Of a stretch of DNA of 64,000 bases, positions 1,496-16,867 are shown one piece after another. Numbering within the stretch: position 1 is the stretch's first letter; each line of letters starts with the position of its first letter. The notes under the pieces are model-generated. The model had not been told where the DNA came from. It searched no databases and saw only the letters and a list, made by a program, of their open reading frames with translations. This DNA comes from Deltaproteobacteria bacterium (GTDB lineage Bacteria > Myxococcota_A > UBA9160 > UBA4427), in contig JAJDAN010000083.1 in NCBI GenBank assembly GCA_029261855.1, positions 1-64,000 on the forward strand, written 5' to 3'. Made by a program: the position numbers and the translations under genes.

Positions 1496-2806
1496 GTGCG
1501 AATCGCGCTGACCCACAAGTTCGTGTTCGGATCGCTGATCGTGGCCGGAGCCTCGATCGCGCTACCGGAATTCTTGCGTCACCGGGGCGTCGACTTCCCC
1601 GCGTGGGGCGCCTTGTTCGTTGCGATGGGTGTCGGCGGCGTGTTCGGCTTCCTCGGCTCGCGCGTTCTCGGTCAGAAGTTCGAGCGCCTGCTCGAACTGA
1701 CGCGCCAGATTCGCGGCGGCAACCTGCGGGCCGACCTGCCGGATCTTCGAAAGCCGCGACTTCCCGACGAGACCGACGATCTGTCCGACAGCCTGCGCGA
1801 CATGCTGGCGGACCTGCGCAAGATGGTGGGTAGCGTGCAGCGGACCGGCGCCAGCGTGACGACGGCCGCGCGGGATCTCACCCGATCCATCCACAACGTG
1901 CGGACCGGCAACGAAGGCATCTCGTCGACGGTGGAAGAGATCGCGGGCAGCGTCGAGAACGAGCAGGAGATGCTCGGCAATGCGGCGCACCTCATCCAGG
2001 AGATCGCCAGCGAGATCGAGCTGAACGCCGGTCGCGCGCGCGAGGCCTTCGGCTTCGCCGCGGAAGCCAACCAGAAGGCGGGTACCGGCGTCGAAGTCGC
2101 GCGGCTGGCCATCGAGAAGATGCGCACGGTCTTCGAACGGGTCGAGCAGGCCGGCGGCAAGGTCTTCGATCTCGAGTCCAAGACCAGCCACGTCCACCAG
2201 ATCACCGAGATCATCACGAGCGTCGCGCACCGGACGAACCTTCTCTCCCTCAACGCATCCATCGAGGCGGCCCGCGCAGGCGAGGCGGGTCGTGGCTTCT
2301 CGGTGGTGGCCGACGAGATCCGCAAGCTGTCCGAGAACGTGGGGCGCAGCGCAGACGAGATCTCGAAGTTGATCCACGAGATCCAGTCCGACACCGGAGA
2401 GGTGGCCGACGAGATGCGCCAGTCGAGCCAGGTGATCGGCGAGGGTCGTGAGGACGTCAATACGATCGCCTCTTCGCTGGAGCAGATCAGCATGGCCGTG
2501 CGCGAGGCGGCGACGCGGTCCGAAGAGATCTTCCACGGCGCCGACAGTCAAGCCGTGAGCACCGAACGCATGGTGACTTCCATGGACGAGATCTCGAAGG
2601 TCGCCAAGGGCAACGCCGCGGCCATCGAGGAGGTCTCCTGCACGGCGCGCTCCCAGCTCGAAGCCGTCACCGCCACGCTCGACAGCTCCGAAGCGCTGAC
2701 CCAGCTGGCGGACGAGATGCGAGGTTCGCTGGGCAGCTTCCGCACGGAAGTCGGGGACGAGCCGGATCCCGACGACGCGCGCAAGACCGGAGGCGCCTCG
2801 TCATGA
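1496..2806 (+). CDS. Methyl-accepting chemotaxis protein without a periplasmic domain
   Basis: 436-residue chemoreceptor. Two hydrophobic segments (about residues 8-26 and 34-55) are separated by only a short loop, so there is no ligand-binding ectodomain. A HAMP-like linker follows (about 56-110), then a long coiled-coil signalling domain. The hairpin tip carries the conserved [20 protein letters not shown] (about residues 255-274), which docks CheA and CheW. Sensing is therefore probably of membrane state, energy or an intracellular cue. Start is GTG at 1496 with AGAGG directly upstream; the Shine-Dalgarno spacing is poor. Its stop overlaps the CheW-like gene (ATGA), and it opens a CheW-CheY-CheA-CheC operon. 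Confidence 0.9.
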
Positions 2807-3384
2807 GCGGCCTACGCATTCCCGCGGCGGACGCGGAGCGTCTCTTGACCTTCGAAGTCGAGTCCGCGGTGTACGCGCTGCCCATCGCCGAGGTGCACGA
2901 GGTGGCCGAGGCCCAGCGCATCTGCTGTGTGCCGACCATCAGTCGCAACCTGGTAGGGATCATGAACTGGCACGGAGACGCATTGCCCGTCGTGTCGGCG
3001 CCGCTGCTGCTCCAGGTGCGGGAGGAAGACCTTCCCCTCGAGCCGGAAGCGGGCGCCGAAGCGGATCCGGACCGGGAACCGGGAATGGACGAGGACCTGG
3101 AGCGCACAGGTCAGCCCGCAGCCGAGACGCGTCCGCGTCCCGAGGCGGGCATGCGTTCCCTGGTGGGCCAGCACGTCCTCGTGGTGTCGGGGCGCGACGA
3201 TGAGGCGGCCCAACTCGGCATCCCCATCGACCGCGTGATCGGGTTGGTCGACGGCGCCCGTCGCAGACGTGGGGGCGGGCGGCTGGTCGTAGAGCGGCGG
3301 TCCGTCGACGGCCGCGTGGTGAGTGTTCTGGATCCGCGTCGTTTGGTGACGCGGGCGAGTGAGGTGATCGCGCGCGTCGCCTAG
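2803..3384 (+). CDS. cheW: CheW-like coupling protein with acidic insertion
   Basis: CheW-domain adaptor (193 residues) that links chemoreceptors to CheA. The N-terminal half has the CheW pattern ([20 protein letters not shown], then [14 protein letters not shown]) and the C-terminal half resumes at about residue 120 with [10 protein letters not shown] and [10 protein letters not shown]. Between them, about residues 72-118, lies an acidic, proline-rich low-complexity insertion absent from standard ~160-residue CheW proteins, probably a flexible surface loop. ATG at 2803 overlaps the MCP stop, indicating translational coupling. Confidence 0.85.
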
Positions 3385-3444: not shown

Positions 3445-3822
3445 ATGAAGGCACGAGTTCTGATCGCAGACGACGCCTCCTTCATGCGCCAGATGATCCG
3501 GGAGATCATCGAGCCGGAAGGATATGAGGTCGTGGGTGAGGCCACCGACGGCATGGAGGCCGTGGAGCAGTACGAGCAGCTGCACCCGGACCTGGTCACG
3601 ATGGACATCGTGATGCCGAAGCGCTCCGGGATCGATGCCGTGAAGGGCATCCTGGAGAAGACGCCGGACGCACAGGTGGTGATGTGCAGTGCGCTGGGAC
3701 AGGAGACCCTCGTGATGGAGGCGCTCCAGGCCGGGGCCAAGGACTTCATCGTGAAGCCCTTCAAGCCCGACAACGTGCTCTCGACGCTCGCGAAGGTCCT
3801 CGAGAAGAAGTCCGAGGACTGA
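3445..3822 (+). CDS. cheY: Chemotaxis response regulator CheY
   Basis: Single receiver domain, 125 residues. All catalytic residues are present: acidic pair D9-D10, phospho-acceptor D54 (VTMDIVMPK), S82 and K104 (FIVKPFKP). No output domain, so it should act by protein contact, as in CheY, after phosphorylation by CheA. ATG at 3445 is preceded by a purine-rich Shine-Dalgarno (GGAAGGAACGGGGGAGA); the open frame upstream to 3397 lacks homology and is not used. It lies between the CheW-like gene and the CheA P1 reading frame, 14 nt before the latter. Confidence 0.93.
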   Translation: MKARVLIADDASFMRQMIREIIEPEGYEVVGEATDGMEAVEQYEQLHPDLVTMDIVMPKRSGIDAVKGILEKTPDAQVVMCSALGQETLVMEALQAGAKDFIVKPFKPDNVLSTLAKVLEKKSED

Positions 3823-3836
3823 TCTTGGGCCTCGAC

Positions 3837-4232
3837 ATGGCCAAATACCGCAGGCTGTTCCTGGAGGAGGCCGCCGAGCACCTCTCCGAGATCAGTACTG
3901 CGTTGCTCGCGCTCGAGAAGGACCGCGGAGCCAGCGAGGGGATCGACGTGATCTTCCGTATGGCCCATTCCATCAAGTCGATGGCGGCCTCCCTCGAGTA
4001 CGGGTCGATCGCCGACCTGGCGCACGCGCTCGAGGACCGCATGGAAGGTGTGCGGGCGCGTGGCTGCATCGATGACGGCGCCGAACTGGCGTCGTTGTTC
4101 CGGGGCCTCGAAGGCCTGGAAGCCATGGTCGCCGTCGTGCGCGAGACCGGCGAGGCGCCGCCTCCCCAGGTCGAACTCGTCGAGTCCATGCGCGCCGAAT
4201 CCGAGTCGCTCAAAAAAAAAGCCCTGAGCTAG
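3837..4232 (+). CDS. cheA: CheA P1 (Hpt) domain, zero-frame part of split CheA
   Basis: 131-residue histidine-phosphotransfer domain: FLEEAAEHLSEIS, then the phospho-acceptor H44 in MAHSIKSMAASLEYG. This is the P1 domain of CheA, normally fused to the kinase. Here the zero frame ends at TAG 4230-4232, just after a run of nine A (4212-4220) encoding KKK. The kinase core lies in the -1 frame directly downstream. A -1 shift at the A tract would yield one 568-residue protein: P1, Ala/Pro linker, P3-P4-P5, with no obvious P2. ATG 3837 is chosen; TTG 3825 in the same frame is possible. Without shifting, this frame makes a free P1 that could serve as phosphate sink or relay. A homopolymer sequencing error remains the alternative. 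Confidence 0.85.
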   Translation: MAKYRRLFLEEAAEHLSEISTALLALEKDRGASEGIDVIFRMAHSIKSMAASLEYGSIADLAHALEDRMEGVRARGCIDDGAELASLFRGLEGLEAMVAVVRETGEAPPPQVELVESMRAESESLKKKALS

Positions 4233-4260
4233 CCGGCCGACCCGAAGTCGGCTTGCTAGC
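4214..4260 (+). promoter_or_regulatory. Candidate programmed -1 frameshift signal in cheA
   Basis: A_AAA_AAA slippery heptamer at 4214-4220, in register with the zero frame, inside a nine-A run (4212-4220). After a 7-nt spacer (4221-4227) a stem-loop begins: GCTAGC 4228-4233 pairs with 4255-4260 and GCCGAC 4236-4241 pairs with GTCGGC 4247-4252, with a 2x2 internal loop and a 5-nt apical loop. The zero-frame stop TAG (4230-4232) sits in the 5' arm. The -1 frame is open from upstream of the A run straight into the CheA kinase. Spacer length and architecture match known bacterial -1 sites; the same nine-A tract could alternatively cause RNA-polymerase slippage, as reported for Thermus dnaX. No strong upstream Shine-Dalgarno stimulator is seen. 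Confidence 0.65.
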
Positions 4261-5542
4261 CGCCGCCGACGAGGTGCCGGCGGCCGTCGCCCCCGAGGTG
4301 CCGGCGGCCGAGCCCCCGGTACCCGGCCAGTCCGAGAGCACGGCGCCCAGCCCCGGGCCGAGCCCGGCCGCCAGTGGCACACCGGCTCCCCCCGGCTTGC
4401 AGGCGTCGGTGCGGGTGCGCACCGAGACCCTCGATCGCTTCCTGGGTGCCGTTGGCGAGGTGATCCTCAGCTCGAGCCAACTGCGGACGCTGGCGGGCGA
4501 GGAGCAGATGGGAGCCGATCTGTCCGCGGGCTTCGACGCCGTCGAGCGACGCGTGACCGAGCTCCAGCGCCGGGTGCTCGACCTGCGCACCACGCCGCTG
4601 CTGCGTGTGATGGAAACCCTTCCGCGCACCGCCAGGCAGCTGGCCGAGCAGCTGGGCAAGCGCGTCGAAGTCGAGCTGCTCGGTGCCGAGCTGGACCTGG
4701 ACCGGTCGATCCTCGACCGACTGAACGAGCCACTGCTGCACGTAGTGCGCAACGCCGTCGACCACGGCATCGAGTCTCCTGAACAGAGACGCGCCGCCGG
4801 CAAGGACGAAGCCGGGCACCTGATCATCGCCGCGCGTCGCGAGAAGGACTCCATCGTCATCGACGTCAGCGACGACGGCGCAGGCATCGATCTCGAGGCC
4901 GTTCGCGACCGGGCCATCGAGGCCGGCCTGCTGCATCCGGGGCTGGCGGAAGACCTGCCACCGGCGGAGGTCGCCGCGCTGATCTTCCGGCCCGGCGTCT
5001 CGACCGCCAAGCGGGTGTCCGCGGTCTCGGGACGCGGGGTCGGCATGGACGCCGTCAAGGCCACCATCGAGTCGTTGGGCGGCGTCGTCGAGCTGCGTAG
5101 CGAACGCGGCAAGGGGACGACCACCAGTGTCGTGGTCCCCATCACCGCGGCCGTGCAACGTGTGCTGCTGTGCGAGGTGTCTGGCGAGCGTGTGGCGCTG
5201 CCGATCACGAAGGTCGAGCGCATCCTGGAGGTGCCCGCCGCGGATGTCGAACGCAGCGGTCCGGAGAGCTTCGCGTTGATCGACGACGAGCCGATCCTGG
5301 TGATCGACCTGGCCGAGGCGCTGGCGGTGCCGGCGCCCCCGCCGGGCGACCGGGTTCCGCTCGTGGTGGTCGACATCCGCGGAGAGCCCGTCGCCGTCCG
5401 GGTCGAGCGCTTCGCCGGCCAGCAAGAGATCTACGTCAAGCCCGTCCCCGAGCTGTTGGCCGGGGTCAAGCTGCTAGCGGGTTTCACGGTGCTGGGAGAT
5501 GGAAGTCCCGTCTTCCTCCTGGACCTCAATCATCTCGCCTGA
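4253..5542 (+). CDS. cheA: CheA kinase core (P3-P4-P5), -1 frame part of split CheA
   Basis: About 429 residues. An Ala/Pro-rich linker (first ~45) is followed by the P3 dimerisation helices (TETLDRFLGAVGEVILSSSQ), then the P4 ATPase with intact N box (HVVRNAVDHGIES), G1 (DDGAGID), and G2 (GRGVGMDAVKATIESLGG), and finally the P5 CheW-like regulatory domain (VQRVLLCEVSGERVALPITK). It lacks the phosphorylated P1 histidine, which is encoded in the preceding frame. The listed start (TTG 4253) is only the first possible initiator downstream of the A9 tract; no Shine-Dalgarno precedes it, and the frame is open upstream through the A9 tract. Synthesis by frameshifting from the P1 frame is therefore more likely than independent initiation. 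Confidence 0.88.
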   Translation: MLAAADEVPAAVAPEVPAAEPPVPGQSESTAPSPGPSPAASGTPAPPGLQASVRVRTETLDRFLGAVGEVILSSSQLRTLAGEEQMGADLSAGFDAVERRVTELQRRVLDLRTTPLLRVMETLPRTARQLAEQLGKRVEVELLGAELDLDRSILDRLNEPLLHVVRNAVDHGIESPEQRRAAGKDEAGHLIIAARREKDSIVIDVSDDGAGIDLEAVRDRAIEAGLLHPGLAEDLPPAEVAALIFRPGVSTAKRVSAVSGRGVGMDAVKATIESLGGVVELRSERGKGTTTSVVVPITAAVQRVLLCEVSGERVALPITKVERILEVPAADVERSGPESFALIDDEPILVIDLAEALAVPAPPPGDRVPLVVVDIRGEPVAVRVERFAGQQEIYVKPVPELLAGVKLLAGFTVLGDGSPVFLLDLNHLA

Positions 5543-5563
5543 GCTTCTTTCGGGGTGGACTTC

Positions 5564-6109
5564 ATGACGACACACGACCGACAAGCCGATCGCACCCGGG
5601 AGCTGGCCAGCGTTGGCGCCGGCCATGCCGCGAGCGCGTTCGCGCAGCTCGTGGGACGCGAGATCCAGATGCGCGCGCCCGAGCTCCTGAACGACCCCAA
5701 GTGGCCGTTCTCCGTGGCGGACGACTGGAGCTCGGGAGTCTTCTTCGAGCTCGAGGGATGTCTCGATGCGGTCGTCGCCATCCTGTTCCGGGAACCGGTC
5801 CGCGACGAGGTGGTGCGAACGATGCTGGGGGATCCGACGGGCGAGCTGTCCCGCGAGAGCGTCGAGGCCGTGATCATGGAGCTTGGCAACATCCTCGTCT
5901 CGCGAGTGGCGTCCGCCATCGCGGACACGCTCGACGAGCGTCTGCTGCCGTCCATCCCCGTGCTCGCCCTCGGCGACGCCGCCGAGCAGCTGTCGGCTCT
6001 CTGTGAACAGCTCGGCGTCGACTCGTCCGTGCGCGTGGAAAGCGAGTTCGCCGATCGCGAGGGCGAGCTGGGCGGCTTGCTGGTGATGATTCCCGGCGGT
6101 CGCCAGTAG
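5564..6109 (+). CDS. cheC: CheC-like chemotaxis phosphatase
   Basis: 181-residue CheC/CheX-type protein that probably dephosphorylates CheY-P. The N-terminus has the CheC helix pattern (ASVGAGHAASAFAQLVGREI), and the signature E-x-x-N occurs in VIMELGNILVSRVASAIADT. A second copy of this active-site motif, as in two-site CheC proteins, is not evident. ATG 5564 is preferred over GTG 5555 because GGGGTGG lies 5 nt upstream. Last gene of the che operon, 21 nt after the cheA stop. No cheB, cheR or cheD is present here, so receptor adaptation would need genes elsewhere. Confidence 0.75.
   Translation: MTTHDRQADRTRELASVGAGHAASAFAQLVGREIQMRAPELLNDPKWPFSVADDWSSGVFFELEGCLDAVVAILFREPVRDEVVRTMLGDPTGELSRESVEAVIMELGNILVSRVASAIADTLDERLLPSIPVLALGDAAEQLSALCEQLGVDSSVRVESEFADREGELGGLLVMIPGGRQ

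Positions 6110-14713: not shown

Positions 14714-16867
<2,154 letters not shown>

Follow-up and report, generated by a model that had tools for sequence, protein, structure and literature searches.

A candidate recoded cheA gene, predicted to encode free P1 and full kinase, in an uncultured class of Myxococcota

To our knowledge, few bacterial cellular genes use programmed -1 frameshifting, and no chemotaxis or two-component kinase was found among the known ones in the literature searched. In Escherichia coli, two forms of CheA are made from one gene, CheA-long and CheA-short, the latter of which arises from an internal start and lacks the start of P1.

Several recoded genes resemble the cheA gene described here. 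Bacterial dnaX (in E. coli, a -1 frameshift with gamma and tau as products) shares with it an A-rich heptamer, a hairpin (in cheA, at clade level), an adjacent stop, two products (predicted for cheA) and the existence of both layouts, and dnaX is known in the normal layout and, in some species, in the reversed one (PMC5009743). A version of dnaX that works by polymerase slippage is found in Thermus, where the use of slippage has been connected with a pair of lysine tRNAs (PMC5009743). In the carboxysome gene csoS2 and in orfA/orfB of the IS3 family, the long product is likewise reached by a -1 shift and the short product ends just past the slip site. The tssM genes of Citrobacter rodentium and Yersinia have a poly-A run followed by a stop, two protein lengths and both layouts, and the polymerase slips there at A11 (PMC4256274). 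In chemotaxis itself, the CheA3/CheA4 pair of Rhodobacter sphaeroides resembles the present case in its separable P1, phosphorylated in trans, and theory ties the ratio of separate P1 and kinase to ultrasensitivity and bistability (PMC3591291).

The cheA locus of the window

The stretch of DNA analysed here as a whole, called the window, is 64 kb long with a GC content of 69%. It contains a compact chemosensory operon with the following features.

1496..2806, + strand: MCP-type chemoreceptor (Pfam MCPsignal, E 3.7e-36; synteny)
2803..3384, + strand: CheW coupling protein (Pfam CheW, E 6e-13; synteny)
3445..3822, + strand: CheY-type response regulator (Pfam Response_reg, E 7.9e-31; synteny)
3837..4232, + strand: zero-frame ORF of cheA, with P1 (Hpt), the phospho-His motif and the C-terminus KKKALS before the stop (Pfam Hpt, E 2.9e-14)
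4212..4220, + strand: A9 tract (sequence)
4214..4220, + strand: slippery heptamer A_AAA_AAA in zero-frame register (in register in 52/52 frameshifted orthologs)
4220..5542, + strand: -1-frame ORF of cheA, with linker, P3 (dimerisation), P4 (ATPase) and P5 (CheW-like) (Pfam H-kinase_dim, HATPase_c, CheW)
4228..4260, + strand: stem-loop (6 bp + 7 bp), 7 nt past the heptamer, with the zero-frame stop inside (z -4.3; 4 pairs with compensatory changes relative to the sister genome L002)
4230..4232, + strand: zero-frame stop TAG, which arises from a rare Leu codon of the -1 frame (CTA) plus G (sequence; codon usage)
5555..6109, + strand: CheC/CheX-type phosphatase (Pfam CheC, E 4.3e-08; synteny)

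The order MCP-CheW-CheY-CheA-CheC is common to nearly all loci of the class that are long enough to show it. FlhA is absent from the window's genome and was found in 19 of the 80 genomes of the order; therefore a non-flagellar output is likely, flagellar chemotaxis is disfavoured as the output, and control of flagella by this system is improbable in most hosts.

The cheA gene lies in two frames, with P1 in the zero frame (3837-4232) and P3-P4-P5 in the -1 frame, which passes through the tract and continues to 5542. The P1 ORF ends with ...CTC AAA AAA AAA GCC CTG AGC TAG, the stop being at 4230-4232, while the -1 frame past the tract reads AGC CCT GAG CTA GCC... and meets no stop until 5542. 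That both parts are intact, as originally predicted, is confirmed by the Pfam domains, namely Hpt with its phospho-His motif in the first ORF and H-kinase_dim, HATPase_c and CheW in the second. Residues 1-104 of the P1 ORF align to the CheA P1 structures 2ld6 and 1tqg, and residues 52-426 of the -1-frame ORF to CheA 1b3q and 3ja6; Pfam and the structure alignments identified no P2 domain between P1 and P3 of this cheA.

The heptamer was found in register within the A9 tract and followed by a 7-nt spacer, again as predicted. The two-part stem-loop also stood at its predicted site, with the zero-frame stop inside, and only its size had to be corrected from 12 bp to 13 bp: the RNA 3' of the spacer folds into 6 bp, a 1x1 bulge and 7 bp (-23.2 kcal/mol; z -4.3), which none of 200 shuffles equalled. 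Ten A would make one continuous frame, and eight, for which the same had been claimed, would not (AAA AAA AAG CCC TGA). In the whole window there are four overlapping A7 matches, three of them within the cheA tract, against 0.09 expected by chance. The sole other A7 run (16811-16817) lies in GAAAAAAATCGCGCC and is apparently intergenic. Elsewhere in the window, at 52-365, a tandem pair of a 157-nt unit (89% identical) is located upstream of a thiL-like gene.

Programmed -1 ribosomal frameshifting is the best explanation of this arrangement, with a probability of about 0.72 on the sequence comparisons given below. P1 would be translated in the zero frame by all ribosomes reaching the tract. Those that do not slip would stop three codons past it and release a free P1 (Hpt) protein of 131 residues, and the others would slip back one base on A_AAA_AAA, lysyl-tRNA(UUU) re-pairing in tandem from AAA to AAA, a step that the hairpin 7 nt downstream may aid in the window genus. 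The slipped ribosomes would then read into P3-P4-P5 and produce a full, P2-less CheA, whose predicted junction-spanning peptide in the window organism is KKKSPELAGRPEVG. We infer that the slippage is ribosomal, and likewise its efficiency.

Conservation of the split, the tract and the stop

Of the 80 genomes of the order, 64 have an ortholog, as do 72 of the 91 in the class; in a sample of 284 genomes of the phylum, no ortholog beyond the class was detected at E<=1e-80. The GenBank records of the relatives are assemblies of uncultured Myxococcota or "Deltaproteobacteria", one of them named isolate UBA9160, and we take their class to be the GTDB class UBA9160. Among the 66 loci in which both parts are readable, P3-P5 is in the -1 frame relative to P1 in 52, in the +1/-2 frame in three and in the same frame in 11. 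The set of named GenBank records, drawn for the most part from genomes already in the main set, has 43 loci in the -1 frame (A7 in 20, A8 in six, A9 in two, A10 in 15). One locus with a later break in P4 (L065, G079) was kept apart in scoring, and its tract region is also in the -1 relation, with A9; the named record of its contig (L137, DOUU01000491) was called -1, and the second interruption in P4 is perhaps an assembly gap. In an unrelated phylum, two cheA genes of Hydrogenothermaceae (L138, L139) are in frame, and an A8 tract lies between their P1 and P4.

All these sequences are metagenome-assembled, the site is a homopolymer and L065 is broken a second time, all of which would suit an error in the reads or the assembly, or a gene decayed to a pseudogene. 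Against this stand the same frame relation in 52 loci, from many assemblies and with differing tract lengths, the intact motifs of P1 and kinase, and a chromosome-level assembly among the GenBank records (CP070734, L102). Conservation over the 52 loci excludes sequencing error for the family, and an artefact or a pseudogene is so improbable that it can be set aside. The -1 frame relation, together with both predicted products, is conserved across dozens of species of one uncultured Myxococcota class. The conservation in 52/66 loci thus supports the original prediction that programmed -1 frameshifting or transcriptional slippage gives free P1 and full CheA, and full CheA is very probably made by recoding of some kind.

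In the 52 loci in the -1 relation, the tract is A7 in 22, A8 in nine, A9 in four and A10 in 17, and A_AAA_AAA is in the zero-frame register in every one. The first A of the heptamer falls on a third codon position, where A otherwise stands in 7.6% of codons in these genes; it is supplied by CCA in 23 loci, although CCA makes up 5.6% of their Pro codons. The second slippery codon is AAA and never AAG, which can be explained by the presence of both tRNA-Lys(CUU) and tRNA-Lys(UUU), encoded together in the window's genome (L153, L154).

The tract lengths also bear on programmed transcriptional slippage, in which the polymerase adds or drops A's so that some mRNAs join P1 and P3-P5 and the same proteins result. 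The A9 and A10 tracts are as long as the runs on which bacterial polymerases slip (PMC1088944), and the two lysine tRNAs, by the argument made for Thermus dnaX (PMC5009743), leave room for it. At the A9-A10 tracts, the window's included, slippage of this kind is possible. As an account of the family it fares less well, because 31 of the 52 tracts are only A7-A8 and because a polymerase has no need of the ribosomal register that all 52 keep. Moreover, no A7 tract is in the register AAA_AAA_A, though four loci have an A8 able to decay to one.

The zero-frame stop also speaks for ribosomal frameshifting with two outputs. It comes no more than 18 nt after the tract in 43 of the 52 loci, whereas control positions gave means of 6.2 (deeper in the gene) and 6.9 (in the linker), and the highest count in 5000 draws for each was 16. 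In 44 loci the stop is no more than 24 nt away, and 34 of these make it through a -1-frame xTA codon (21 CTA, 12 GTA and one ATA), and one of the 12 GTA loci yields TAA as the zero-frame stop. CTA accounts for 1.5% of Leu codons and GTA for 3.0% of Val codons, yet these two create the stop in 33 of the 44, counts in which related loci share ancestry, hence the events are not independent. Because of the proximity of the stop and the use of rare CTA and GTA codons, the early zero-frame stop, and hence free P1, looks selected, and by these sequence patterns both free P1 and full CheA appear to be under selection.

A further possibility is that the CheA is truly split, P1 and P3-P5 being made separately through an internal start or stop-restart coupling and with no frameshift. 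The CheA3/CheA4 pair of R. sphaeroides shows that such a pair can be functional (PMC3591291), and in many loci P3 is preceded at some point by a GTG or ATG. However, 12 of the 52 loci lack any ATG, GTG or TTG in the P3-P5 frame between its preceding stop and P3, so that an independent start is ruled out for at least these 12, and 18 have no start codon after the tract. The starts that exist mostly have no Shine-Dalgarno match. In the window, where the -1 frame had been predicted to have no Shine-Dalgarno-supported start of its own, a scan agreed: the last upstream stop is at 4073, the first start codon thereafter is TTG at 4253, with no match, and those that follow have no good one. Separate synthesis would also leave the invariant in-register A tract unexplained, and we consider it very improbable.

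Putative stimulators and exceptional loci

In the sister genome L002 the hairpin of the window keeps its spacer and shape, and at four pairs both partners have changed so that pairing is preserved. By sequence comparison, this exact hairpin is confined to the genus and is not universal. The expectation that orthologs would conserve the site therefore held for the tract, the register, the frame relation and the adjacent stop (52/66 loci), but for the hairpin only within the genus. Over all loci, the downstream fold exceeds controls in stability by a small margin (mean z of -0.68, compared with -0.04 to -0.28), and in many loci the spacer is 11-17 nt rather than 5-9 nt. Hairpins at 11 and 13 nt past the tract recur in two other groups, which supports a downstream structure there in part. 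In the hairpin of the g10 clade, 95% of cells are paired and the pairs are mostly invariant, and its covariation is only suggestive. A universal downstream hairpin was thus dropped in favour of clade-level ones.

Shine-Dalgarno-like pairing is highest 4-10 nt upstream of the tract, and it is stronger at A7 and A8 tracts (-6.7 and -6.2 kcal/mol) than at A9 and A10 tracts (-1.9 and -3.9 kcal/mol). At the genus level the signal reaches p=0.04 (16/26 genera), and it is nearly absent in the window. A strong universal stimulator of this kind has moderate support at best.

These results divide between the two slippage mechanisms. The Shine-Dalgarno-like pairing before the tract and the hairpin shared by the window and L002 speak for -1 ribosomal frameshifting. 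The weakness of the Shine-Dalgarno signal at genus level, the non-universal structure and an A9 tract in the window that is long enough for polymerase slippage all count against it, and the weaker elements at A9/A10 loci favour the polymerase, although it would have no evident use for the hairpin conserved in the window's genus.

The loci that depart from the -1 relation are of three kinds. In-frame cheA genes were found at 11 loci, 10 of them without any tract. Unbroken and tract-less genes of this sort, which had been named as evidence against recoding if present in close relatives, occur only in 10 less closely related genomes, all outside the window's family, and appear on the tree of cheA as scattered switches in a gene family that is mostly frameshifted. 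The tree requires at least eight frame-state changes in all. The eleventh locus, L045 (G058), is in frame and retains an A10 tract, with a stop in the -1 frame two codons past it; therefore it would give the same two products in an inverted layout that resembles dnaX, with the long product in frame and the short product reached by a shift. L059, from a congener, has no tract. In the third kind (L022, L042 and L058, from G037, G049 and G048), which forms one clade (100/96), P3-P5 is in the +1/-2 frame relative to P1. These three keep an A7 or A10 tract, with a TGA 4 nt past it, and in L042 and L058 the tract is preceded, at a distance of 5 nt, by a strong GGAGGG-like element. A simple -1 ribosomal shift leaves their frame relation unexplained, while polymerase slippage, through indels of either sign, reaches it more easily. 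Taken over the whole family, transcriptional slippage is unlikely, though a serious competitor, and programmed -1 ribosomal frameshifting continues to be preferred. On balance, the sequences tilt us towards a class-wide kinase in which recoding would set the ratio of free P1 to full kinase, both outputs being selected even in the inverted layout of L045 and with the changed direction of the +1/-2 clade.

Significance and comparison with known systems

Because of what is known of split CheA systems (PMC3591291), free P1 may, by analogy, work next to the tethered kinase as a phosphorylatable shuttle or as a phosphate sink for CheY. Recoding would then fix the ratio of diffusible phospho-carrier to tethered kinase and so tune CheY output. 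If this is true, we know of no earlier case of a two-component kinase controlled by recoding, and nature would have provided a system in which to ask whether free P1 makes signalling switch-like. Standard gene calling reports such a locus as a lone Hpt protein and a truncated CheA or pseudogene, so the feature is easily overlooked, and published counts of "split CheA" may contain recoded cases. The family also offers a natural set, from A7 to A10, with and without stimulators, in frame, inverted and changed in direction, which suits the dissection of ribosomal from polymerase slippage.

The original prediction knew of no frameshift-regulated CheA; the part of the literature covered by our search likewise contained no recoded CheA and no recoded two-component kinase, and the accessible parts of the GeneTack survey and of the 2016 review mention neither CheA nor chemotaxis. 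Recoding at A-rich slippery sites is already known from dnaX, csoS2, IS elements and tssM; within the literature covered, the gene class and the proposed biological use are new. The dnaX of the window's genome has no A5+ or T5+ run at its locus that could form a second recoding site.

The differences from each known system are as follows. In dnaX, the usual site is A_AAA_AAG with an upstream Shine-Dalgarno element, whereas that of cheA is A_AAA_AAA and its long product usually needs the shift. The csoS2 and IS3 orfA/orfB genes encode a structural protein and a transposase, in contrast to a signalling kinase. The tssM tract is A11, has no stimulators and acts at transcription, while the cheA tracts are kept in register and 31 are only A7-A8. 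CheA3 and CheA4 of R. sphaeroides come from two genes, CheA3 with a phosphatase region, whereas here there is one recoded gene and a full CheA is predicted as well. As with CheA-long and CheA-short of E. coli, two forms would come from one gene, but the short form here would be P1 alone.
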